A program made the translations under genes and the position numbers. From Candidatus Atribacteria bacterium (GTDB taxonomy: Bacteria > Atribacterota > Phoenicimicrobiia > Phoenicimicrobiales > Stramentimicrobiaceae), in contig JAKPKS010000049.1 in NCBI GenBank assembly GCA_029553585.1, forward strand, positions 1 through 64,000: a stretch of 64,000 bases of DNA. The letters are read 5' to 3'. Every line of letters starts with the position of its first letter. Within the stretch, counting starts at the first letter, position 1. This document shows positions 1,248 to 48,627 of the stretch, piece by piece. The notes under the pieces were generated by a model. The model had not been told where the DNA came from. It did not search any database and worked only from the letters and a program-made list of their open reading frames with translations.

Positions 1248-1988
1248 TTATCCAAGCCTGGCAGCTGTTGCAGCTATATGGCCTGCAAGGGAAGATACAA
1301 ACGACCTAATATTAGTCATATCAGATATCTGAGAATAACTGCCGTTGTCTACAGCTTCCCTTGGGGAAGCGATAACTGATGCTGTAGTATATAGCTGTTC
1401 TCTTACTAATTTTTGGCATAATATATCATAACGTTTTAGGTATGATGTATTTTCAAATTCTTTAAACACTGGAAAATGAGGAGAGGTACATTGTACTTCA
1501 GATCTTGACCCAGGAGCGTCCTCTACCAGGATCAACCATCCTGCAAAAGGTCTGGGTTGCTCTCCAAAAGCTCCTTCACGATAAGCAGTCCAAAAATCAT
1601 GAGCGGTGCCTATTGCCTCTTCTGTTCGGTTATTAAAGTTGTTCCCAAAAGAAGGCCCAACTTGGCTTTTCAACTCTATAGCTGCAACTAATTCCCCTTT
1701 ATGCATAACAATAAGATCCCATAATTTCGTTGGCCTGAAAAAGCCTGGAAGAGCCAATACAGCTCTACTCTGATGAATCTCAGCTTGGATTAACCCGTTT
1801 GCGCGAATAATATCCAGTATTAAAGCTATAAAACCATCCATGTTCTTTCCTGCAGTCACACCAGCCCTTTCTCCTTGGTCAACATTTCCGGATTCTATTT
1901 GCTTTTGTCTAGCTGCATCCCTGTTTCCCCAAAAGGCTTTCACAGCCTCTCTTACTTTAACATCATAGTTCACTAAGTCTAGCGTCAT
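1248..1988 (-). CDS. Type II restriction endonuclease, XhoI/PaeR7I family
   Basis: Cleaves double-stranded DNA; family members recognise CTCGAG. The length, 246 aa, equals that of XhoI and PaeR7I as I remember them. Family signatures include [15 protein letters not shown] (39-53), [14 protein letters not shown] (81-94), [17 protein letters not shown] (105-121) and EEAIGTAHD. The PD-(D/E)xK core is visible as Asp91 and Glu105-x-Lys107. The ATG overlaps the methyltransferase stop by one base (TAATG), so the two are translationally coupled with the methylase first, which protects the host. No truncation is visible. The specificity CTCGAG is inferred from the family. Confidence 0.9.
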
Positions 1989-3727
1989 TACTCCCCATTA
2001 CCTCCTAACGCCGATCGTTCTTCTTGATTTAATTCATATAATTTAAAGACGGCTTTATTACATTTTTCGATATCCCGTTTTTTGGCTGCATCAATAAGTT
2101 CTTGCCTAAGCTCAGGTGATACGTCCTCCCATTTGGGAATCCTTATCCTGCGCAAATACTGTGCTTGAAAACGGAGGTATCCCCCACGGATTTTAGTTGA
2201 GTAAGTGCCAATAAAAAGTTTCGCAATACTCGACAAAAGTACCGCCTGTAAGGCCCTAAGATTCCATTCTTCTGATGTAACATAATATAAATTATGATGC
2301 GGGTAATACGTCCCCGATTCATACACAATGTGGGCCTCGCCTTTAATATCTGGGATTAATAGTTTTTCTTTTGTAGTCAAGTCAGGCCAAACACGATCTA
2401 TCGTTCTGAACCAATTATCCGGAGCCTTTTTAGCAACATGCCTATTTTTGATTAGTTCTTCATGTAAATATAGAAATCTTGAAAGCTTTGGGTAATCCTT
2501 TAAATTGACAAGGCCACCATCATCATTAAATGTATTAATTACACACTGCCCGAGCCAATTGATCTCCCCGGTCTGTATATCTTTTGTTGTCACTAAAGGT
2601 ATTTTTCTATCTTCTTCAATATCTAGCTCAGCAAAATCCTGAATATAGATTTTGTCCGCTCCTGTAGCAACACCAATTCCGACTTTACAACCCACCTCTT
2701 CAAGGGTAGGATAGTTATTTTCAATTTTCCTTAGTAGATTCACTTGATCGGTTGACTCAAGCAGCCATGGTTCATTGGCATTAACTATACCGGCTACTTC
2801 TCTTACTTTTGTAGTGTCCGGTATTTTTTGACTTAGTATTTCTTTAGATAAGGATTTCAAAATTTCTTTATCTACCTTCGGACGATGACTAACCCTTGTC
2901 GGCCCCTGTTTCTCTCTACTGATTATCGTTATTGCAGGATAAACGGATACTTCCGTATGAAAGGCATCTGTTTCAACCATGTCAATATATGCCTTCAAAT
3001 TAAATCCCTTAGATACAAATTCTCTTAATGGACCACCATACCGATTTTTCATCCAACGATCAGAGCAAATAAATCCTAATGTCCCTTTAGATTTAAGCAA
3101 GCCCAGCGATTTTTCTATAAATGGAATATACAAATCCGCCCTGTCATACATGGTGCTGTACCTTAGCCGATATTCTTTTAATAAGGCTTCGGGTATTGCT
3201 TCTTGTCTTAAATACGGGGGGTTACCGATTACATAATCATAATTTCCCAGGTGATTAGCCAGTAAAAAATCCCCTTGAACTAGCCAGGAATCCGAAAGTT
3301 CAATTGCAACTTCTTCTGTTATACCAACCTCTCTTATTTTTTCTATTACGGATTTTTTCGTGTTTTCATAAGTTTCGTAGTGCAATTCTACTGCACGTAC
3401 TGATTCAGAAAGCTCTTCAAAGGCCGTGCTATTATCTCCCGAATGCTTTATCCATGATTTAAGCAGTCTATCAATTATTAATAATAAAAAGTCCCCATTA
3501 CCAAATGAAGGTTCCAAAACCCTCTTACTATATAATTTTTCTTCAGCATTATAACCGACTAAATCCAAGATAAACTCAACCACTTCTTCCCGGGTAAAAA
3601 CAGCCCCCCTATCCTCACCATTGCTTGAGGCGGCCAAGGCATCTATTGCTGCTAATACAGAACTATTCATTTGGTAGGTAGAAACTTCGATATCATCAAA
3701 TAAAGACATTTGTTCTAAACCCACCAT
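1988..3727 (-). CDS. Type II DNA N6-adenine methyltransferase, partner of the XhoI-like enzyme
   Basis: Methylates adenine in the recognition site and so protects the host from the adjacent endonuclease. The SAM-binding motif EPSFGNGDF lies near residues 72-80 and the catalytic NPPY motif near 169-172 ([10 protein letters not shown]), followed by a long C-terminal target-recognition region, as in Eco57I/PaeR7I-type methylases. I place the start at ATG 3727, because GGGAGG sits 7 nt before it; a TTG five codons upstream lacks a site. It is encoded between the XRE regulator at 3754-3969 and the endonuclease. Confidence 0.9.
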
Positions 3728-3753
3728 AATAATTCCTCCCAAAACATACCCAT

Positions 3754-7656: not shown

Positions 7657-7832
7657 TTAAAAACACCTCCCTTCTTTATCCCTTTTTTCTTATCGTGGTC
7701 TTTACAAGGTAAAGCCGTTAGGGGAGAATATATCGCCTTAGCCCTTATAAATAGCGGCTTTAAAGGCTTTACGCATGTCACATATTCCCTCTAAAACGAG
7801 TATTTATCAAGTCATATTTGAGCTAAAAAGGG

Positions 7833-14329: not shown

Positions 14330-14815
14330 TTACTCTGTGTGCTTTCCTTGTATATCTAAAAAATCAAGAAATCTTTCCAATTCAGTTTTGATATCATTAA
14401 ACAAATCTGGTAATTTCTTTACTAAAGGTTCTATTCTAGCAGCAGAAAGATTAAAACTATATACATTTCTTACAATATGACGAAACCCTCTATACTCATC
14501 AAGGGTGTTTCTTGTTTCTTTAGAAATAACAGCGGGACGTACTAGCTTAATATCCACGGCCATTTGCCTTAAAAGTTCTTGATGCCAATTTTCTCCTTGT
14601 GGCTTTCCTTGATCTATTGTAGTAGCTACTAATTCAAAAACCTTTTCAAGTGCTGTATAAAAACTATGTAGATTTAATGCGACGCTATCTAAATAGAATT
14701 CATCCCCCGATTGCATTAATTGTTTCCAGCCACTTTCAATTCGGTCGATTATTATCCTCATCTCTGACAATTCTTCACGGATCCTACCAGATAGAGCGAG
14801 TTGCCTTTTATTCAT
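14330..14815 (-). CDS. HEPN-domain (HepT-like) toxin or effector
   Basis: An all-helical 161-aa protein with the motif YRGFRHIVRNVYSF near residues 109-121, characteristic of HepT-like proteins paired with nucleotidyltransferases. HEPN proteins of this kind are usually RNases. The residue after the second Arg is Asn rather than the more common His, so RNase activity is uncertain. It overlaps the nucleotidyltransferase gene by 4 bp (ATGA), with GAGGGGGT before the start. Base composition resembles its neighbours. Not a structural phage gene; it is cargo. Confidence 0.75.
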   Translation of the reverse strand: MNKRQLALSGRIREELSEMRIIIDRIESGWKQLMQSGDEFYLDSVALNLHSFYTALEKVFELVATTIDQGKPQGENWHQELLRQMAVDIKLVRPAVISKETRNTLDEYRGFRHIVRNVYSFNLSAARIEPLVKKLPDLFNDIKTELERFLDFLDIQGKHTE

Positions 14816-15195
14816 ATCTCTACCCCCTCAATTTCAAGTGCTTTCTTCAAGGAGTCCCTACAATCTATAGCATCAACCAAATCTATTTTAAAATCCGCAG
14901 TTAAAGCCGTTACTGCTCCTACCGCTGCATAAAATTTGTTTTCTGGTATTCCCCATACCGCCAAATCTATATCGGACCAAAGTGTAAATGATGGACGATC
15001 AGTCAAAGAACCAAACACCACTACTTTCGTTGCACCATAATTTGACTTTAAAATTACCGCAGCTTTTTTGGCAATTTCCCAAGCCTCCTTGTAACGCTTC
15101 GTTAGAAACGGTTCATCTTTGGTAACAGCTTTTGTGAAGGTAAAGGGATATTTTTGTTTATAATATTCGGCTAATTCTTCAGTTCTTGCATTCAT
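14812..15195 (-). CDS. MNT-type nucleotidyltransferase (MntA-like antitoxin)
   Basis: A 127-aa minimal nucleotidyltransferase with Gly62-Ser63, then SDIDLAVWG giving Asp75 and Asp77, and a third acidic residue near Asp105 (KIDLVD). In characterised MntA/HepT pairs the transferase adds AMP to the HEPN protein and silences it. It is the first gene of a two-gene operon with its own promoter at 15229-15257. The pair is likely addiction or anti-phage cargo of the prophage. Confidence 0.8.
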   Translation of the reverse strand: MNARTEELAEYYKQKYPFTFTKAVTKDEPFLTKRYKEAWEIAKKAAVILKSNYGATKVVVFGSLTDRPSFTLWSDIDLAVWGIPENKFYAAVGAVTALTADFKIDLVDAIDCRDSLKKALEIEGVEI

Positions 15196-22832: not shown

Positions 22833-24386
22833 TTACAAAATAATCATGTCTCTTTTATCATAAATGGAACCATCATCACTAGGTGGGTTAACAACCGCCC
22901 TGGCCAGACCCATAATCATAGCCACAATACCGTCAATTTTTTCGGCGGATTTTTCTTTGTCTACTTTGATGTTTCCAGCGGGGTCAGTTCTCACCACAAT
23001 ATTATCCGCCATCCATCTAAGTACCGGGTGATCTCCGTGGGCGATTTGCTTGCTCAAAACCAACCGCATCATATCTTTAGTAGGTGGTGACATATCTTTA
23101 AACCCCTGACCAAAAGGTATTACTGTAAAACCCATCCCCTCTAAATTTTGGCTCATTTGAGTAGCTCCCCAGCGGTCATAGACAATTTCTCTTATGTTGT
23201 ATTCCTCTCCCAGCCTTTCAATAAACTTTTCAATAAAACCATAATGGACCACATTTCCTTCCGTAAGGTTTATCAATCCCTGCCTATGCCAGATATCATA
23301 AGGCACACTGTCTTTTCTTACCCGCTGGTAAAGGGTGTCTTCCGGTATCCAAAAGTAGGGCAAGATTTCGTACTTTTCCCCTTCTTCCTCCGGTGGGAAT
23401 ACCAACACAAAGGCAGTAATATCTGTAGTAGATGATAAATCTAATCCCCCATAGCAGGTCCTACCTTTTAAAGTTTCCGGGTCTACCGGGAAGCTACACT
23501 CATCCCATTTTTCCATGGGCATCCATTTGATATCCTGCTTTAGCCACATGTTTAACCTTAACTGTTTAAAAAGAGCTAAATCTGCCGGATCATCTTTCAC
23601 CTGCTCAAAATGTTCCCTGACCCGTTCTATTGAAATGGTATGGCCAAGACTTGGATTGGCCTTGTACCAGTTTTTTTCATCTGCAATATCTGCATCATCT
23701 TCCAATCCATAAATAATGGAGAGAAAAGTTGGGTCTACTCTTTTACCTTCTAAAATATCCTTAGCCTTGCTATGCATTTCCCAGCCATAACCGGATAGTT
23801 GGTTACCGGCGGTGGTTAGATATAAAAAAAGAGGCTGGGTTCTGGCGTCCCCTGAACCTGTAGTTAACATCTTTGCTAAATCCGGATTAGGATAGGTCCA
23901 GATCTCATCTAATATTACGCAAGAAGCATTAAGCCCCGATTTGGATTTTACGTCTGAACTTAATACCTGATAGAAGCTCCCGGTCTTAGGGTAAACAATT
24001 CTTTTAGTTGAGCGCACTAGGTTGGTCACCTTGGATAAAGTTGTGTTTCCTTCCACAAAATTAACGCTGGTGTTAAAGATAATGCTGGCCTGTTGCCTGT
24101 CGCATGCGGCCACATACACTTCCGCATTAGGCTCCCCATCAGCCAAAAGCATATAAAGGGCAATGGCTGCACCTAGTTCCGATTTACCGTTTTTCTTCCC
24201 TATTTCCAAATAAGCTGTGCGATACTGCCTTGTGCCATCCTCCCGCAAAGTGCCAAAGAGCTTACTTACTAAATCCCTCTCCCAAGGTAGCAAGATGAAA
24301 GGTTGACCAGCCCATCTGCCTTTGGTGAGCTTTAATTGCTGTATGAAATTGATAGCATGATTAGCATGAGCCTCACTAAAATACAA
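22833..24386 (-). CDS. Terminase large subunit
   Basis: An ATPase-nuclease that packages DNA into the prohead. The Walker A-like GKKNGKSE sits near residue 65, and Walker B is in SCVILDEIWTYPNP. The nuclease part starts at CYGGLDLSSTTDITAF and continues with VYDRWGATQMSQNLEGMGF. I place the start at TTG 24386, 8 nt after GGGAGG; a GTG three codons earlier overlaps that site. About 517 aa, full length. Confidence 0.95.
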   Translation of the reverse strand: MYFSEAHANHAINFIQQLKLTKGRWAGQPFILLPWERDLVSKLFGTLREDGTRQYRTAYLEIGKKNGKSELGAAIALYMLLADGEPNAEVYVAACDRQQASIIFNTSVNFVEGNTTLSKVTNLVRSTKRIVYPKTGSFYQVLSSDVKSKSGLNASCVILDEIWTYPNPDLAKMLTTGSGDARTQPLFLYLTTAGNQLSGYGWEMHSKAKDILEGKRVDPTFLSIIYGLEDDADIADEKNWYKANPSLGHTISIERVREHFEQVKDDPADLALFKQLRLNMWLKQDIKWMPMEKWDECSFPVDPETLKGRTCYGGLDLSSTTDITAFVLVFPPEEEGEKYEILPYFWIPEDTLYQRVRKDSVPYDIWHRQGLINLTEGNVVHYGFIEKFIERLGEEYNIREIVYDRWGATQMSQNLEGMGFTVIPFGQGFKDMSPPTKDMMRLVLSKQIAHGDHPVLRWMADNIVVRTDPAGNIKVDKEKSAEKIDGIVAMIMGLARAVVNPPSDDGSIYDKRDMIIL

Positions 24387-24406
24387 ATGAACCACCTCCC
24401 ATTTCT

Positions 24407-24919
24407 TTAATCATCTTTTACTGTCTTTATAAAATCCTCTGCATTTGGTATCTCCGATAAAAGACTTGCCATGGCATCTCCTTCAATAACCCCACCAGTA
24501 TTGGAGATATTGAGTCTACTCCGAGCCGATGGGGTAAGCCCCAGCTCCGAGCAGAAGTTTCGCATCTGCTTTAAATTCTGCTGGGCGATAGACACTTGAG
24601 GAATTTGCTGAATATACCCCGATGCAGTTTTCAAAATGGAACCATGCTTTGAAATAAATTCTTCAGCTTCTTTCCACCTAGCGTAAGCTTGGCAGTAACC
24701 TGCAAAGGCGGCCATGTCTACCCGAGTTAAAAGTCCCATAGCTTCAAGTTCTTTAGAAAGCCTTCTCCATTCTTTCTTAGCATCAGGAAGCAGCCATGAC
24801 GGGCAGTTTGGGGCTTTTTTCTCCGGTTTGGGCTCATTTTGGTTTAATGGTCTTTTGCCGGGGTTACCCTCTAATACTTTTAATGCTGTAGGTTTTGGTG
24901 GTCTTCCCCTACCTGCCAT
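24407..24919 (-). CDS. Terminase small subunit, P27 family
   Basis: A 170-aa protein that recognises the packaging site. Family markers are AGRGRPPKPTALKVLEGNPGKR at the N-terminus, CPSWLLPDAKKEWRR and FCSELGLTPSARSRL near the C-terminus. The start ATG 24919 follows AAAGGAGG; an upstream in-frame start lacks one. P27-type small subunits with an HNH protein usually go with cos packaging. Confidence 0.93.
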   Translation of the reverse strand: MAGRGRPPKPTALKVLEGNPGKRPLNQNEPKPEKKAPNCPSWLLPDAKKEWRRLSKELEAMGLLTRVDMAAFAGYCQAYARWKEAEEFISKHGSILKTASGYIQQIPQVSIAQQNLKQMRNFCSELGLTPSARSRLNISNTGGVIEGDAMASLLSEIPNAEDFIKTVKDD

Positions 24920-24956
24920 AGGCTTCACCTCCTTTATCAAAACTTATATTTGAACA

Positions 24957-25032: not shown

Positions 25033-25248
25033 CTAACCCTTAATCCCCCTATAATTATAGTTCCCCTTTTTAATTTCTTCATGGTCAGCCTCTACCGCTT
25101 TCCTATAATCCAGCTCTTTGGTCTCTTTTTCCTTACAGCTCATACAAAGGCAATCCTCATTGAACATGGACATAATCCTTCCTCCAACTAAACTGCCGCC
25201 GCAAAGGTCACAAGTTTTCTGTGTGAAAAATCTATCCTCTTTATTCAT
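25033..25248 (-). CDS. Small zinc-ribbon protein of the amidoligase module
   Basis: A 71-aa protein with CDLCGG near residue 13 and CLCMSC near residue 35, a likely zinc ribbon, followed by a charged tail. It overlaps the preceding amidoligase-like gene by 8 bp and so is co-translated with it. Function unknown; it could be an adaptor or a substrate of the peptide-modifying enzymes next to it. Confidence 0.65.
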   Translation of the reverse strand: MNKEDRFFTQKTCDLCGGSLVGGRIMSMFNEDCLCMSCKEKETKELDYRKAVEADHEEIKKGNYNYRGIKG

Positions 25249-26059
25249 CTTCTATCACCGTCCTAAAGGCTGAACTGCCATTTAAGTGTCCGAGCATTAA
25301 TTTTCTGGTATCCTTATATTTCTCACCATTCATCCCCAAGCGAATAAGCCAAGTTCTTAAAGCATATTTGGGGTTTTCTTCTTGGGTCTGCTTAAAAGAA
25401 GTCCTTTTTAATGTTTTAGCCAAAGCGTTAATTAAGGCAGTAAATTCACTAAAGGCCTTAATAAGCTCTGGCACCAGGCTTACCCGGCTAAGCCTAAAAA
25501 CTATGGTATTTTCTACCGAATCAATTTCCAGCCCTTTGCACCTATCTTTTCCTAAGCCGCTTGCAATGTCTTTGAATTCCTCTAAAGTGTTAATCTTTTC
25601 TTTGCTCAAGTTTTCCGCAAAGGTATCATCCATAAAGGGAACCTCTGTCCTAAAAGCCAGCATTAGTAAATTCTGTTTACTGTAAAGCATGTTAACGAGA
25701 TTTTTTAGACTTAAAGCTGTATGACCTTCCAATGGAAACTTTACTTCTAGATTATCAAAAATCTGAGTCTCGTCGTTTCTAAGAGTTTCTCTGACTTCCG
25801 GATCTGGCCCTTGTTTTGGCTCCACTGATGTTTCCTCAGTAGTTTCTTCTTCCCCTACTGCCACACCTGTTGGTGGTGCATTTAAAATTTCCTCCATGCT
25901 AACTTCGCACCCATCGCTGGTGGTAATAACCCCATGCCGGTCAATAATGTAGATTTTATCTGCTGTTGTGATTTGGTAGTTAAAACTTGGCACTGATAAG
26001 TATTTCGGTTTAACACCTAAATGTTCTCCCAGCCTTTTTACTAATTCCTTCCGCGTCAT
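25241..26059 (-). CDS. Diverged amidoligase-like protein, probably inactive
   Basis: A 272-aa protein. The N-terminal 60 residues are a small separate domain (KELVKRLGEHLGVKPKY). Residues 100-270 can be aligned with the amidoligase at 26802-27728: LKNLVNMLYSKQNLL against LRNFVNIIYSRNDLL, and ENPKYALRTWLIRLG against ENPKFAMRTWLNRIG. The putative active-site features of the partner (EVEFTG, VHIHLNG, VELRGF) are replaced by EVKFPLEG and IVFRLSRV, so catalysis is unlikely. Similar proteins are often annotated virion structural protein. Probably a regulatory or scaffold partner. Confidence 0.7.
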   Translation of the reverse strand: MTRKELVKRLGEHLGVKPKYLSVPSFNYQITTADKIYIIDRHGVITTSDGCEVSMEEILNAPPTGVAVGEEETTEETSVEPKQGPDPEVRETLRNDETQIFDNLEVKFPLEGHTALSLKNLVNMLYSKQNLLMLAFRTEVPFMDDTFAENLSKEKINTLEEFKDIASGLGKDRCKGLEIDSVENTIVFRLSRVSLVPELIKAFSEFTALINALAKTLKRTSFKQTQEENPKYALRTWLIRLGMNGEKYKDTRKLMLGHLNGSSAFRTVIEDE

Positions 26060-26079
26060 ATTTTTTACCTCCCTTGTAT

Positions 26080-26121
26080 TTTGGTACTCTATACATCACT
26101 CAAAACACAAGATATATCAAG
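26080..26121 (-). promoter_or_regulatory. Leader element copy 1 (amidoligase module)
   Basis: On the minus strand TTGATA, then 17-19 bp containing TGTGTTTTGAGTGAT, then a TATA-like box and GTACC. The same element occurs before 27728 and in part before 28058. It probably is a promoter with a bound regulator. Confidence 0.5.
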
Positions 26122-26177
26122 CAATATATGCATTATCCGAGACTTTTTCTGACTAAAAAAGGGCCTTTTCATGACAC

Positions 26178-26666
26178 CTACCTCCCGTGTTTATTTCGTA
26201 AACCTATCTCTCTTTCACTAATTCTTAGTGCCATTTCAATATGTTTTTTATCAAAACCTGCCGCTTTATAGCCTGCTTTAACAGTTTCAAGATATCCCCT
26301 ACTTGGCAAGTTTAGCTCAATCCTCTCCATCACTTCATCCGTCATAATATAAACCATGGCGGTAATTACCCCACCGGTTTCAAGGTAAACCTCTAATTCC
26401 TTCTTTTCATAAAACCTTGGATACCCTTCATAGTAGTCCAGTGCCTTTTCATCACCGGGCAACAACTCCCAAACCAATACCGGCACAAAGTTTCCCTTTT
26501 TAGGTTCAATAGTAGCATAAGCGTTATTTTCTCTACCTTTAAAAAGAAGCCGATAATCTTTAATTATACCCTTGCCATAGACCTTAGCTGTTGGACAGCG
26601 ATAAGCCATTTGCTCTAAATTTAGGTTTGACCCGTAAGCTGCGTTTATAAGTTTTACCATTCTCAT
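26178..26666 (-). CDS. Gamma-glutamylcyclotransferase-like (AIG2/GGCT) protein
   Basis: A 162-aa GGCT-fold protein: the glycine-rich start AAYGSNLNLEQM, then VWELLPGDEKALDYYEGYPRFYEKKE containing the conserved acidic residue in DYYEG, and MVYIMTD. Family enzymes release gamma-glutamyl groups as 5-oxoproline. Encoded between the two amidoligase paralogues; GGCT proteins accompany amidoligases in phage operons, where they may trim or reverse the amide link. The start is taken at ATG 26666; ATG 26660 is also possible. Confidence 0.85.
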   Translation of the reverse strand: MRMVKLINAAYGSNLNLEQMAYRCPTAKVYGKGIIKDYRLLFKGRENNAYATIEPKKGNFVPVLVWELLPGDEKALDYYEGYPRFYEKKELEVYLETGGVITAMVYIMTDEVMERIELNLPSRGYLETVKAGYKAAGFDKKHIEMALRISEREIGLRNKHGR

Positions 26667-26801
26667 TACTTCACCCTTCCTTTCCAAAGAGCCTTTCTTC
26701 CCGCAATTTGCCCTTTTGTGGCCTTTGTTTTTTGACCTAGCCCTTCTACCACCTAAAGAGCGGTTTCCCGCTCTGTGGCCTTTAGGGAGCCGCTTTTTTA
26801 G

Positions 26802-27728
26802 TTATGCGGCTCTTTGAAATCTCCAGGCTGCGCTTCCTGCAAGGTGTTTTATAAGATGCTCTCGGCAGTTTTTGAATTCTTCCCCAATAAAGCCGATTCT
26901 GTTAAGCCAAGTCCTCATGGCAAACTTCGGGTTTTCAACTTGCGGCTTTTTGCTGCTAGCGCTTTTTTGGGTTAAGGCTTGCTGGTTCATGGCTAGGGCT
27001 AGAACAACAAAGCTTCTTATTTTTCCGCTATGTAGACGGCTGGCATTAAAACCCCTAAGCTCCACTGTGCCGCATCCGTTGAAGAAGCTATGAAGGTTGA
27101 GAAAATGGTACCTACTTTCGTGGTAATGCCTTGTTCGGCTTTCGCTGTAGCCTTCGTACCAAATGTCCTCTATCTGCTTAAAAGAGGTAGGCTTTTTCCG
27201 GTTCATTTTTTCTACCAAGTCCTGGTCCATCTTCTTGCAATAATGCATTCTATTTGGTTCCACCTCTAGGCTTTCATAAAGCAGGTCGTTTCTTGAGTAA
27301 ATGATGTTAACGAAGTTTCTTAGGCTTCTTGGTGTGTGGTCTGCCCCATTCAAATGGATGTGAACTCCGGTTTTATTAATTCTCTCTGAAAAAGCCCCAG
27401 CCTTCCTAAGCTTTCTGATTAGTTCCTGCAAAGTGGCCATGTCCTTTTCGTAGGTTAAAATCGGGCTGACTAACTCAACGCTGTATTCTCTTCCAGCTAA
27501 AACTTTCTCCCCATTTACTTTTCTTTGGGTGTAAATGCTGCCATCGTAGACGAATTTCCAAACCCTTCCGTCCGGGGCAGTTACCTTGTAAGTTCCGTAG
27601 GAGTCCCTAGTCTCTGTAATGGTTCCTCCTAAATGTCCGGCTGCAACCTCTGCTGCTTGCCTTCTGGTAATTCCGGTAAACTCTACCTCAATGCCAAACT
27701 TGGTTTTTAGAAAGTTTCTGTTTTCCAC
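26802..27728 (-). CDS. Amidoligase (COOH-NH2 ligase family)
   Basis: A 308-aa ATP-grasp-related ligase that would join a carboxyl group to an amine. Core motifs are FGIEVEFTG near residue 10, REYSVELVSPIL, TGVHIHLNGADHT, and GTVELRGFNAS. The start is GTG at 27728 with AAAGGGG before it; the longer frame begins in the upstream leader element. The substrate is unknown. Partners nearby are a GGCT-like protein, a probably dead paralogue, a zinc ribbon and a 70-aa protein. Confidence 0.88.
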   Translation of the reverse strand: MENRNFLKTKFGIEVEFTGITRRQAAEVAAGHLGGTITETRDSYGTYKVTAPDGRVWKFVYDGSIYTQRKVNGEKVLAGREYSVELVSPILTYEKDMATLQELIRKLRKAGAFSERINKTGVHIHLNGADHTPRSLRNFVNIIYSRNDLLYESLEVEPNRMHYCKKMDQDLVEKMNRKKPTSFKQIEDIWYEGYSESRTRHYHESRYHFLNLHSFFNGCGTVELRGFNASRLHSGKIRSFVVLALAMNQQALTQKSASSKKPQVENPKFAMRTWLNRIGFIGEEFKNCREHLIKHLAGSAAWRFQRAA

Positions 27729-27752
27729 CTGTATTTCCCCTTTCGTGTGTTT

Positions 27753-27795
27753 TTTTGGTAGTCTATATATCACTCAGAACACACATAATAGCAAG
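27753..27795 (-). promoter_or_regulatory. Leader element copy 2 (amidoligase module)
   Basis: On the minus strand CTTGCTATTATGTGTGTTCT, then GAGTGATATATAGACTACC. It matches copy 1 over about 35 positions and sits right before the amidoligase ribosome site. Confidence 0.5.
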
Positions 27796-27845
27796 TCATT
27801 TATCGAAGAAATACAGCCTTATTTAAAGCTTTTTTAGTTTAAAAC

Positions 27846-28058
27846 CTACTCCACATCTACATATTCCATAATGATGCTTAAGGCTTCATCATAAGAGCCT
27901 GAAGCCATAACCCGATCGCTGACCTCCTGGACTTTGTCATTTTGGCCATCAGCTTTTAAAGTTTGACGAACCCTACCAAGGATAAAGAATATGTTTCCAT
28001 CCTCACCGATTAATTTGCATTTAGGTTTTGATTCATCTGAAATTTTTTTACCGCCCAT
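27846..28058 (-). CDS. Conserved 70-aa protein linked to the amidoligase module
   Basis: A small protein with a Lys-rich start and the motif KCKLIGEDGNIFFILGRV, then helices (NDKVQEVSDRVMASGSYDEALSIIMEYVDVE). I have seen this family in phages and plasmids of Firmicutes but know no function. As the first gene of the module it is a candidate substrate or carrier for the ligase. The ribosome site AGGAGG is 8 nt from the ATG. Confidence 0.7.
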   Translation of the reverse strand: MGGKKISDESKPKCKLIGEDGNIFFILGRVRQTLKADGQNDKVQEVSDRVMASGSYDEALSIIMEYVDVE

Positions 28059-28081
28059 AAAAAAATCCCTCCTAAAAAGAT

Positions 28082-28138
28082 AGTCACACCATATATCCCT
28101 TAAAATGCTAATAATAGCAAGGGAAATTTAGTGTGACT
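28082..28138 (-). terminator. Terminator-like hairpin overlapping leader element copy 3
   Basis: AGTCACAC (28082-28089) and GTGTGACT (28131-28138) pair as outer stem, and AAGGGA pairs with TCCCTT inside. On the minus strand ATCTTTTT follows. The inner part (CTTGCTATTATTAGC, then GGGATATATGG) resembles leader copies 1 and 2, so termination of the methyltransferase transcript and a new start may be combined here. Confidence 0.5.
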
Positions 28139-28159: not shown

Positions 28160-29401
28160 TTAGCCAATTGCCAAATCCTTATATTGAATCTTTTTTCCTT
28201 CTCTGAGCAAGTAGACATCTTCATCACTACCTACATGTTCGATAAATCTTTTAACCCCAACATCCACAAAGCGTTCTTCTAATTCTATAGCAAAACAAAT
28301 TCTATCTATCTGCTCGCAGGCTATGAGGGTTGAAGCGCTGCCGGAGAAGGGATCCACAACAATAGCGTTTACGGCTGTGCTGTTTTTAATGGGATAAGCC
28401 ATTAAGGGCACTGGTTTCATGGTGCTATGGAGCTTATTTTTAGAAGGTTTATCAAACTCCCATATAGTCGTTTCAGCCCTTCCTGCATACCATTTATGCT
28501 TCCCCTTCTTCTTCCAGCCAAAAAGGCAGGGTTCATTTCGCCATTGATAGGGTGAGCGACCCATTACCAAGGATTGCTTAACCCACTGGCAGACCCCAGA
28601 TAAATAAAATCCGGCATCTTCAAAGACCTTTCTAAAGATTAAACCTTTTGTATCTGCATGAAATACATAAATGGACGCATCGTCAGCCATTATACTTTCC
28701 ATGTTTTTAAAAGCGCTTAGTAAGAATTGATAAAATTCTTCACCTTGCAGATTGTCATTTTTAATGGTTCCCTGACTTCCCTCATAGGAAACCCCATAAG
28801 GGGGATCCGTTAATACCAGATTGGCCTTCTTCCCATCCATTAACTTTTCATAGGTTTCGGCTTTAGTGCTATCCCCACACATCAGGCGATGCCTTCCCAG
28901 TAACCAAATGTCACTTGGCTTTGAAATTAATTCTTCCTCTAGGGCCGCATCCATATCAAAATCATCATCTGTGACATCCTTATCGTGTACCCGGCTAAAT
29001 AGATCCTCTATCTCCGCTGCATCAAAACCCGTTAGGCTTAAATCAAAGTCCTGTTCATTTAAATCGTGAAGCAAGTCAGCTAAAGCCACAATCTCCCAAT
29101 CACCGGTTACTTTGTTAAGGGCCAGATTAAGGGCTTTTTCTTTATCGGAAGGAAGATTCACTACTACGCATTCAACTTCTGTATGGCCTGCTTCTAATAA
29201 AATCTTATATCTTTGGTGACCACCTACAATGTTACCGGTTTCTTCATTCCAGATAATTGGCTCAACATAGCCAAACTCGCTCATGGACCTTTTAAGCTTT
29301 TCGTAGGCCGGATCTCCCGGTTTTAGGTCTTTTCTTGGGTTATATTTTGCCGGATTAATATTTAAGACCGGCACTTTTCTTATATCCATATTTTCTTTCA
29401 C
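28160..29401 (-). CDS. ParB-domain DNA methyltransferase fusion (orphan phage methylase)
   Basis: A 413-aa fusion. Residues 1-100 form a ParB/sulfiredoxin-like domain (NPAKYNPRKDL, GGHQRYKILLEAG). From about 165 a DNA methyltransferase follows with DPPYGVSYEG (motif IV) ahead of DPFSGSASTLIACEQ (motif I), the beta-class order. It starts at GTG 29401 after GGAGG. No nuclease is adjacent; such methylases protect phage DNA from host restriction. The target sequence is unknown. Confidence 0.92.
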   Translation of the reverse strand: MKENMDIRKVPVLNINPAKYNPRKDLKPGDPAYEKLKRSMSEFGYVEPIIWNEETGNIVGGHQRYKILLEAGHTEVECVVVNLPSDKEKALNLALNKVTGDWEIVALADLLHDLNEQDFDLSLTGFDAAEIEDLFSRVHDKDVTDDDFDMDAALEEELISKPSDIWLLGRHRLMCGDSTKAETYEKLMDGKKANLVLTDPPYGVSYEGSQGTIKNDNLQGEEFYQFLLSAFKNMESIMADDASIYVFHADTKGLIFRKVFEDAGFYLSGVCQWVKQSLVMGRSPYQWRNEPCLFGWKKKGKHKWYAGRAETTIWEFDKPSKNKLHSTMKPVPLMAYPIKNSTAVNAIVVDPFSGSASTLIACEQIDRICFAIELEERFVDVGVKRFIEHVGSDEDVYLLREGKKIQYKDLAIG

Positions 29402-46683: not shown

Positions 46684-47181
46684 CTAATAGGTTCCTTTAT
46701 TATCAATTGCTCTTTCAATATAATCGCCTAAATTCTCCTTAATGTCATTATAAACATAGGTGCTGGTGGAATGCGGTGGATCATAACATTCAACGTAATT
46801 CGAAAGCCGATGACCATCTTTATTGTAAAGACTATAAAACGGATTTGCTCCTTTAGTTGTCTGATTACCATCAGCATCTTTTAAGCCGTGAATATAAACA
46901 CCCACAATTCCTTTGCCTAGTTCATATGCTTTTTCAATTTCATATTTGACCCATTTTCTTGTCGATGTAGATTTCCCAATTAACACAACAACACAGGAAC
47001 GCTTGGCCATCTGCCCATCTATCCACTCTTTAATTTTAGCATCTGATTTATAGCGAACTTCTTCCCAGTCATTAGATGACCATGTAGATGAATTGTCAAC
47101 GATACCCATGTTTTTTACTTGAGCAGCACGCCAATTATCGGGTGTGTAGTGGAAACTAAAAAACACTTGCCTTTTCGCCAT
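46684..47181 (-). CDS. thsB: Thoeris ThsB, TIR-domain sensor
   Basis: A 165-aa TIR-like (DUF1863) protein: QVFFSFHYTPDNWRAAQVKNM at the start, DWEEVRYKSDAKIKEWIDGQM, CVVVLIGKSTSTRKWVKYEIEKAYELGKGIVGVYI. Glu81 or Glu83 after Trp77 is the likely catalytic acid. In type I Thoeris, ThsB senses phage and converts NAD into a cyclic ADP-ribose isomer that activates ThsA. It lies directly downstream of thsA, with AAAGGAG before the ATG. Confidence 0.92.
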   Translation of the reverse strand: MAKRQVFFSFHYTPDNWRAAQVKNMGIVDNSSTWSSNDWEEVRYKSDAKIKEWIDGQMAKRSCVVVLIGKSTSTRKWVKYEIEKAYELGKGIVGVYIHGLKDADGNQTTKGANPFYSLYNKDGHRLSNYVECYDPPHSTSTYVYNDIKENLGDYIERAIDNKGTY

Positions 47182-47211
47182 ATCATTTTTCTCCTTTACA
47201 TTTATTTGAAT

Positions 47212-48627
47212 TTAATATCTCACCGAATCAACTATCTTAACGGTTAGATTAACCAAATCTTTTGGGTTAACAGTTGATTCTAAGTCTAAAATGTAATCTT
47301 TCAAATATGAGAAATCATTGATATTTTTTTTAATATCTTCTAATATTTCTTTTGCCACATATCCCGTGCAACTTAATGGAATTATTATCTTTCCCAATGA
47401 TTTAGCGATTTCATATTCTTCCCAGCATCCATCTGCGTTTATAATCATCCCGTCTTTTTCCTTGTTTCCAAACATAAATATTGCTATCCCTACCTGAGTG
47501 AGCATCTCTTGTCGATATTTTGTAAATAAAGTTTTCCTTTCATCCGGATTAATAATACCTTGTGGAAAGGGTCGCAAACATAGATATTCATCTATATGTT
47601 TATATTTAGTTGTATATATCTCATTAAGTGCCCCATTTATAATAGAAGAACCAATCCCCAAACCAAAACCCGTTGTAATTTTATAATTTCTCTTCACTAA
47701 TTCCTTAGCTAACTGAAATGCAAAATTCCCAGATTTTACATTATCCCAAGGCGAATCAAACTGTTCCACACTACCGGAAATAAAAATGTTATTCTTATAT
47801 ACGGATATCTCTATCTCCCTAAGAATATCTGTTATCTCCTCATATTCGTTTATAAAAATAGCCTGAATACCATATCTCTTTAAGTCTTTCTCCCGAAGAT
47901 CTTGCTTTACTTTTCGGTAAACAAAATCCTCCTCGCTCTCACCTTGTTCTTTTTGAACACGTTTAAAGAAGCAATAATGATCACGTTTATTTTCATCAAG
48001 CAAAGTATGTATTCGACTAAGTATATAATCTAAGTTTGGATCTTCAAAGCTAAAACCTACAAAGAGAAATGTTTTAGAAATTAAGTCGCCCTGTAATGCA
48101 GTTCGAAATAGTGGCCGCTTCATATCATATCTTTCATAATCGTCCTTTGTTAAAACTGCATCCGCTGGTCTTTCAACATCCCCATGCATTTTGTACAAAA
48201 CAGCATCTCTATTAGGGAGTGTAATGGCTAACTGATCCTTATCTATCTTTACTTCAACTTTCCGGTTATTCCCTCGCAATCCATCCTCCAATAGTTGATC
48301 ATAATTAGTAGTCCAATAAGTATTTATGGGAAGTCTTGTGAGAATGTTTATGTTCTCATTATCTTCAGTCCCATTATTAAATGTTTCTATAATTGCTTGG
48401 TTAATTGATGCCCTAGTTCCTCGTTCATTCCTGTGATATTGGGCAACCGCTAGAAGATCATCTTCTTTTTCAATATTTAAACCAATGTCGCGAGCCAGTG
48501 GTTTCAATAAAGTCTTCCAATCTACAAATCCTGAGGCTCTTGATAACCCAGCACCAGCAAAAACTGCTGCGTATCCCTCCCGTACTGCCTTAGAATAATT
48601 TCTAATTAATTCATTTACTGAAACCAA
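47212..48627 (-). CDS. thsA: Thoeris ThsA, SIR2-SLOG NADase effector
   Basis: A 471-aa two-domain effector. SIR2 NADase (1-280): FAGAGLSRASGF (23-34), TTNYDQLL with Asn108, YKMHGDVERP with His148; these fit the Asn/His pair required in the Bacillus cereus protein. SLOG domain (290-471): IFISGSVEQFDSPW, ITTGFGLGIGSSIINGAL, which binds the signal made by ThsB. On activation it depletes NAD and aborts infection. It starts at TTG 48627 behind GGTG. Full length compared with known ThsA. Confidence 0.95.
   Translation of the reverse strand: MVSVNELIRNYSKAVREGYAAVFAGAGLSRASGFVDWKTLLKPLARDIGLNIEKEDDLLAVAQYHRNERGTRASINQAIIETFNNGTEDNENINILTRLPINTYWTTNYDQLLEDGLRGNNRKVEVKIDKDQLAITLPNRDAVLYKMHGDVERPADAVLTKDDYERYDMKRPLFRTALQGDLISKTFLFVGFSFEDPNLDYILSRIHTLLDENKRDHYCFFKRVQKEQGESEEDFVYRKVKQDLREKDLKRYGIQAIFINEYEEITDILREIEISVYKNNIFISGSVEQFDSPWDNVKSGNFAFQLAKELVKRNYKITTGFGLGIGSSIINGALNEIYTTKYKHIDEYLCLRPFPQGIINPDERKTLFTKYRQEMLTQVGIAIFMFGNKEKDGMIINADGCWEEYEIAKSLGKIIIPLSCTGYVAKEILEDIKKNINDFSYLKDYILDLESTVNPKDLVNLTVKIVDSVRY

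Follow-up and report, generated by a model that had tools for sequence, protein, structure and literature searches.

Between a DNA methylase gene and the terminase genes of a prophage, the 64-kb stretch of DNA analysed here (the window) carries five consecutive genes, two of which are related to amidoligases, and this arrangement raises the question of whether the five genes form one functional system or only lie side by side. The preliminary description of the locus favoured a single system composed of an enzyme, a dead partner and a small target protein. All five open reading frames were found on the minus strand between methylase and terminase, in the order given there, and the locus comprises the following features, in the direction of transcription:

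28160-29401, minus strand: ParB-N/N6-N4 DNA methyltransferase, the commonest neighbour of P
28079-28122, minus strand: weaker copy of the control element upstream of T70 (profile score 17.3), the third member of repeat family D1
27846-28058, minus strand: T70, a 70-aa phage protein of PHROG 1933 (match at 4.4e-20), likely a bystander
27753-27796, minus strand: control element before A (profile score 55.0)
26802-27728, minus strand: A, an amidoligase (Amidoligase_2, Pfam 1.4e-68) of 308 aa when read from GTG 27728
26178-26687, minus strand: G, a gamma-glutamyl cyclotransferase-like protein (Pfam PF06094, 4.2e-13)
26079-26122, minus strand: control element before P (profile score 53.2)
25241-26059, minus strand: P, a predicted pseudo-amidoligase of 272 aa (PHROG 2443, 5e-48), a near-core Heliusvirales gene
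25033-25248, minus strand: Z, a zinc-ribbon protein (PHROG 27033) with an 8-base overlap with the end of P
24407-24940, minus strand: terminase small subunit (TerS), bordering the five-gene interval
22833-24940, minus strand: terminase large and small subunits (Pfam), flanking the locus

The prophage occupies approximately 7.9-45 kb of the window, and its gene order and core genes match those of Ca. Heliusvirales, with PV036459 and PV036453 as the nearest phages. Heliusviridae are defined by nine core genes, and P, A and G lie outside that set (PMC9226167). We tested for all nine (DUF2800, DUF2815, PolA, VRR nuclease, SNF2, TerL, portal, Clp protease and capsid) and could recognise eight of them in the prophage, DUF2815 appearing as PF10991 under its present name; the candidate for the VRR nuclease is a protein of 106 aa without a Pfam match. 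The window also contains a HepT-like and nucleotidyltransferase gene pair within the phage tail gene region (14330-15195), a Thoeris-like pair adjoining the prophage (46684-48627; ThsA, 7e-194, and ThsB, 2e-74) and an XhoI-type restriction endonuclease with an Eco57I-type methylase (1248-3742).

P has no Pfam match of its own and shares with A membership of PHROG 2443, a family named 'amidoligase enzyme'. Comparison of the P and A profiles gave a probability of 99.9% and an E value of 7e-36 over 231 columns, which places their homology well beyond chance; PF12224 was touched by 11 of 31 P members at E values up to 0.1, the best being 3e-4. The preliminary description had called P an apparently dead amidoligase paralogue that keeps the shared C-terminal ENPK(Y/F)A-RTWL block and has lost the EVEFTG, HIH and ELRGF features, and both observations hold for the window protein and family-wide. 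E29, E31, H138, H140, E238 and R240 are present in all 27 A proteins. At these positions P mostly has N or K, N, E/V/T, K/E/Q, T/R/S and P/K, respectively, and on the point that mattered most for that description, a possible full set of active-site residues in P, none of the 32 P proteins keeps H138, H140 or E238. Eleven P proteins retain the first strand, which in some reads KINYNVTG, with N-x-N where A has E-x-E, and the position of E31 is there occupied by N in nine, by G in one and by K in one; translation of the window P begins just past this strand. The E100 strand is absent in 28 of the 32. The structural model of P (pLDDT 84) is confident apart from a disordered acidic linker, and its best viral structure match is an Arthrobacter phage amidoligase, matches to PDB entries being weak.

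Median dN/dS was 0.156 for P, 0.087 for A and 0.108 for G, as calculated from the first 401 qualifying pairs, which are not independent of one another, and the value for P indicates that it is maintained by selection. Being a true homologue that lacks the catalytic residues and is under selection, P is confirmed, as judged from sequence, as a conserved pseudoenzyme family and the presumably catalytically dead sister of A. For the many Firmicutes prophages in which members are annotated as 'amidoligase enzyme' or 'virulence-related protein', this amounts to the testable statement that the whole branch is a pseudoenzyme. The C-terminal residues N281, R287, G294, G297, R304 and G313 are invariant in A and are kept in at least 31 of the 32 P proteins. 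As judged by eye, the C-terminal domain is apparently absent from Arthrobacter and Bacillus phage amidoligases, and a form of it is carried by a Faecalibacterium phage amidoligase; this pattern suggests that P arose by duplication within the C-terminally extended amidoligase subfamily.

A itself is an intact amidoligase, as had been proposed, since it matches Pfam Amidoligase_2 over profile positions 3-244 of 245 and has all family motifs. The E-x-E, E100, H-x-H and E-L-R residues are invariant in 27 of 27 A relatives, with the exception of L239 (24 of 27). Its open reading frame is open from GTG 27773, which falls within a conserved intergenic element, and the likely start is GTG 27728 further downstream. 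Among solved structures, the best matches to the predicted fold of A (pLDDT 86) include glutamine synthetase and YbdK, none of the matches having an E value below 0.001. At one related locus (L084:42-6273) the A gene is apparently split by ~5 kb of inserted DNA. G is likewise intact, as the preliminary description had it: in addition to its match to PF06094, it keeps the YGSNL loop and the catalytic-Glu region LDYYEG, both of which are covered by the alignment to human GGCT.

In the fetched loci, the next family gene after A is G in 148 of 155 cases. Among 106 P-centred loci flanked by 4 kb or more on either side, which are not a random sample, 47 carry both A and G, 51 carry neither, seven have A alone and one has G alone; on the P tree, G follows the gain or loss of A in approximately 11 of 13 independent comparisons (p ~0.001). 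A is thus paired with G, and these data support the view that A+G is an optional enzyme pair and a real evolutionary unit. With this pair separated from bystanders, an experimenter knows what to co-express.

P has a different distribution. Single-protein scanning of viral contigs with P gave no match, and an alignment query recovered its relatives; in the window's own class (24 genomes), only the window's own genome matched. Of the 106 P loci, 100 have the methylase within 4 kb of P, 54 have A, 48 G, 40 Z and 32 T70. Among the P loci flanked by 6 kb or more on each side, 46 lack A, and a tree of 119 P proteins implies at least 19 gains or losses of A. In Streptococcus, Erysipelothrix and Gardnerella phages, P has the methylase and a SAM synthetase-like gene as neighbours, and the annotation shows neither A nor G in the vicinity. 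Other Heliusvirales carry A+G but not P. P is therefore a near-core gene of Heliusvirales that is inherited separately from A+G. Many relatives (L005, L089, L257 and others) have a SAM synthetase-like gene (MetK) between TerS and the methylase; it is missing from this place in the window.

The presence of the small proteins T70 and Z shows no significant association with that of A (Fisher p 0.29 and 0.23, respectively), and both remain mostly unchanged in the 13 independent comparisons in which A comes or goes. Relatives of T70 were found in 166 phage records, mostly from the unrelated Mycobacterium and Listeria phages. Independent inheritance makes T70 and Z poor candidate targets, and we rejected the suggestion that either is modified by A+G. 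In the viral family PHROG 27033, G is matched by the N-terminal part and Z by the C-terminal part, which suggests a natural GGCT-zinc-ribbon fusion. The expectation that the five genes co-occur in other genomes was borne out in part: 52 loci contain all five genes, but these follow three different orders and are separately inherited pieces, the window's order being the rarest (4 of 52). With P often present without A+G, A+G present without P, and T70 and Z independent, the data do not support a single system in which an enzyme, an inactive partner and a small target act together.

What A and P do have in common, in addition to their ancestry, is a conserved element upstream of the gene. Allowing at most three mismatches, TGAGTGATRTATAGASTACCAAAA was found twice in the 64 kb, where none is expected, and both instances lie directly upstream of A and P. 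A profile built from instances at related loci gave 468 hits on the coding strand and nine on the opposite strand in 3.75 Mb (~240 loci). The element precedes 173 of 210 P genes (82%), 114 of 162 A genes (70%), 6 of 166 G genes and 1 of 225 TerL genes, and the same scan gave no hit before any MTase, TerS, portal, HNH, SNF2 or sigma-like (DUF1492) gene. Because sites before P and A contributed to the profile, the percentages for these two genes are somewhat favoured, which does not apply to the zeroes for the core genes. The element is also used by small accessory families and by some serine recombinases, one of which, in L308, has a full copy in front; in the window a weak copy (7769-7812; score 5.8) lies upstream of a serine recombinase gene. 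The consensus consists of CTTGcTATt, a spacer of 8-10 nt, TTtAGAGTGATatATa.ActacC and an A-rich stretch, followed by a Shine-Dalgarno sequence and the start codon, which is mostly 21-26 nt past a fixed point of the element.

The arms of the element pair better with their own than with swapped partners (z 8.6, 0 of 5000), a test used in place of a consensus fold because pairing registers vary; RNAalifold on one MAFFT alignment of the element returned no consensus pairs. An uninterrupted stem of at least 6 bp is present in 54% of instances compared with 36% in the swapped control, and of 45 clear stems, 36 have a 3' arm that overlaps the Shine-Dalgarno sequence or lies directly next to it. In the window, the copy upstream of P folds into a hairpin with z -2.1, and the copy upstream of A folds no better than shuffled sequences. 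A known RNA family was rejected, as an Rfam search of the locus returned no family at E values up to 5, and a simple sigma-70 promoter was not supported, as a sigma-70 scan did not call the element a promoter. The data show that the element is conserved, consistently placed and has co-varying arms, and it is probably a promoter inside a translation-blocking hairpin. It is apparently undescribed and had no place in the preliminary description; with more than 400 hits in the fetched loci, the majority of them upstream of accessory genes in a widespread order of gut phages, it is directly testable and is perhaps the more useful result of this work.

Our best overall explanation, which we hold with about even confidence, is that an optional A+G pair, a separate dead P and a shared promoter-in-hairpin element are found side by side, so that the methylase-to-terminase interval of Heliusvirales would consist of three separately inherited pieces. 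Going by its family, A is most likely an ATP-using ligase of the glutamine synthetase fold that couples an amine to a carboxylate, probably the gamma-carboxyl of glutamate, and G would remove the gamma-glutamyl group as 5-oxoproline. P, apparently derived from an amidoligase of the C-terminally extended subfamily, no longer has the metal/ATP site and would be retained as a binding protein, its conserved part being the C-terminal domain common to A and P. Since the adenine methylase is the steadiest neighbour of P, we weakly prefer a function of P in the modification or packaging of phage DNA to one in regulating A, and the association with the methylase may be plain conserved gene order. In a single case, Clostridium fessum (L173:5144-9621), an element-bearing P lies directly downstream of a type IIG restriction-methylase, with an AbiEi-like gene nearby and outside a recognisable prophage. 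A and P would each carry their own copy of the element, with a putative promoter CTTGCTAT...GTGATATAT inside the hairpin. The 3' arm would reach the ribosome-binding site, so that read-through transcripts would be poorly translated, and transcripts begun inside the hairpin loop would be translated. More tentatively, the element could be a mobile promoter-hairpin cassette that plugs accessory genes into the head operon with separate timing, with A and P as its main users and P recruited to DNA modification or packaging.

A role of A and G in altering the surface of the host cell or its peptidoglycan precursors, for example to block superinfection, would fit their optional, cargo-like spread, and a cell-surface or peptidoglycan proposal has been repeated in the literature for the amidoligase of phage phiEco32 (PMC11318856, PMC10580990). 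However, no envelope gene was identified in the locus, where the neighbours are DNA modification and packaging genes, and we consider this reading somewhat unlikely. The C-terminal domain and control element common to A and P, together with the position of P beside A in 41 of 48 A-centred viral loci, could alternatively mean that P, the dead sister, regulates A or acts together with it, and that the target of A is a phage peptide or protein, for instance T70 or Z. Yet P occurs without A in about half of the P loci and A without P in 7 of the 48, on which grounds an obligate partnership was rejected, and neither small protein tracks A; a looser partnership is unlikely. We regard it as distinctly improbable that A amidates a modified DNA base made by the neighbouring methylase as part of a hypermodification pathway: the methylase and often MetK adjoin A, and there is a precedent in CmoY, a known phage DNA amide ligase homologous to asparagine synthetase (PMC12783734), but CmoY works with CmoA/CmoX, neither of which was identified at the locus, MetK does not track A (p 0.76), and A is also found in phages with no methylase annotated within the few kb shown. 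A remaining enzymatic activity of P, with different chemistry in a rebuilt site, is very improbable: K4, Y20, P24 and Y28, among other residues, are conserved across P, but the lost site has not been replaced by any conserved acid, histidine or cysteine, the E100 strand is mostly gone and the linker is disordered.

Compared with known systems, A and G of the window belong to established families, the Amidoligase_2/PHROG 2443 phage amidoligases and GGCT, and amidoligase-GGCT pairs have been annotated in Arthrobacter, LUZ24-like, C. clostridioforme and Tn6164 elements. Unlike the amidoligases of PHROG 2443, P, which is lumped with them or labelled 'virulence-related protein', is without an active site. 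The locus resembles the CmoX/CmoY system in having a probable ATP-dependent amide ligase, the ligation by A being expected from its family, next to ParB-linked DNA methylases, but the ligase families are unrelated and CmoA was not identified at the Heliusvirales locus. The closest parallel to the element is provided by the T4 genes with a late promoter in a hairpin (e, soc, 49 and I-TevI), which likewise have a hairpin adjacent to the ribosome-binding site and promoter-like sequence on its 5' side or loop; for e and I-TevI, long early transcripts hide the ribosome-binding site in the hairpin, and those made from the late promoter, being without the 5' arm, are translated (PMC3014915). The Heliusvirales element differs from these in sequence and in phage order and, in contrast to the T4 genes, is reused before many unrelated accessory genes.
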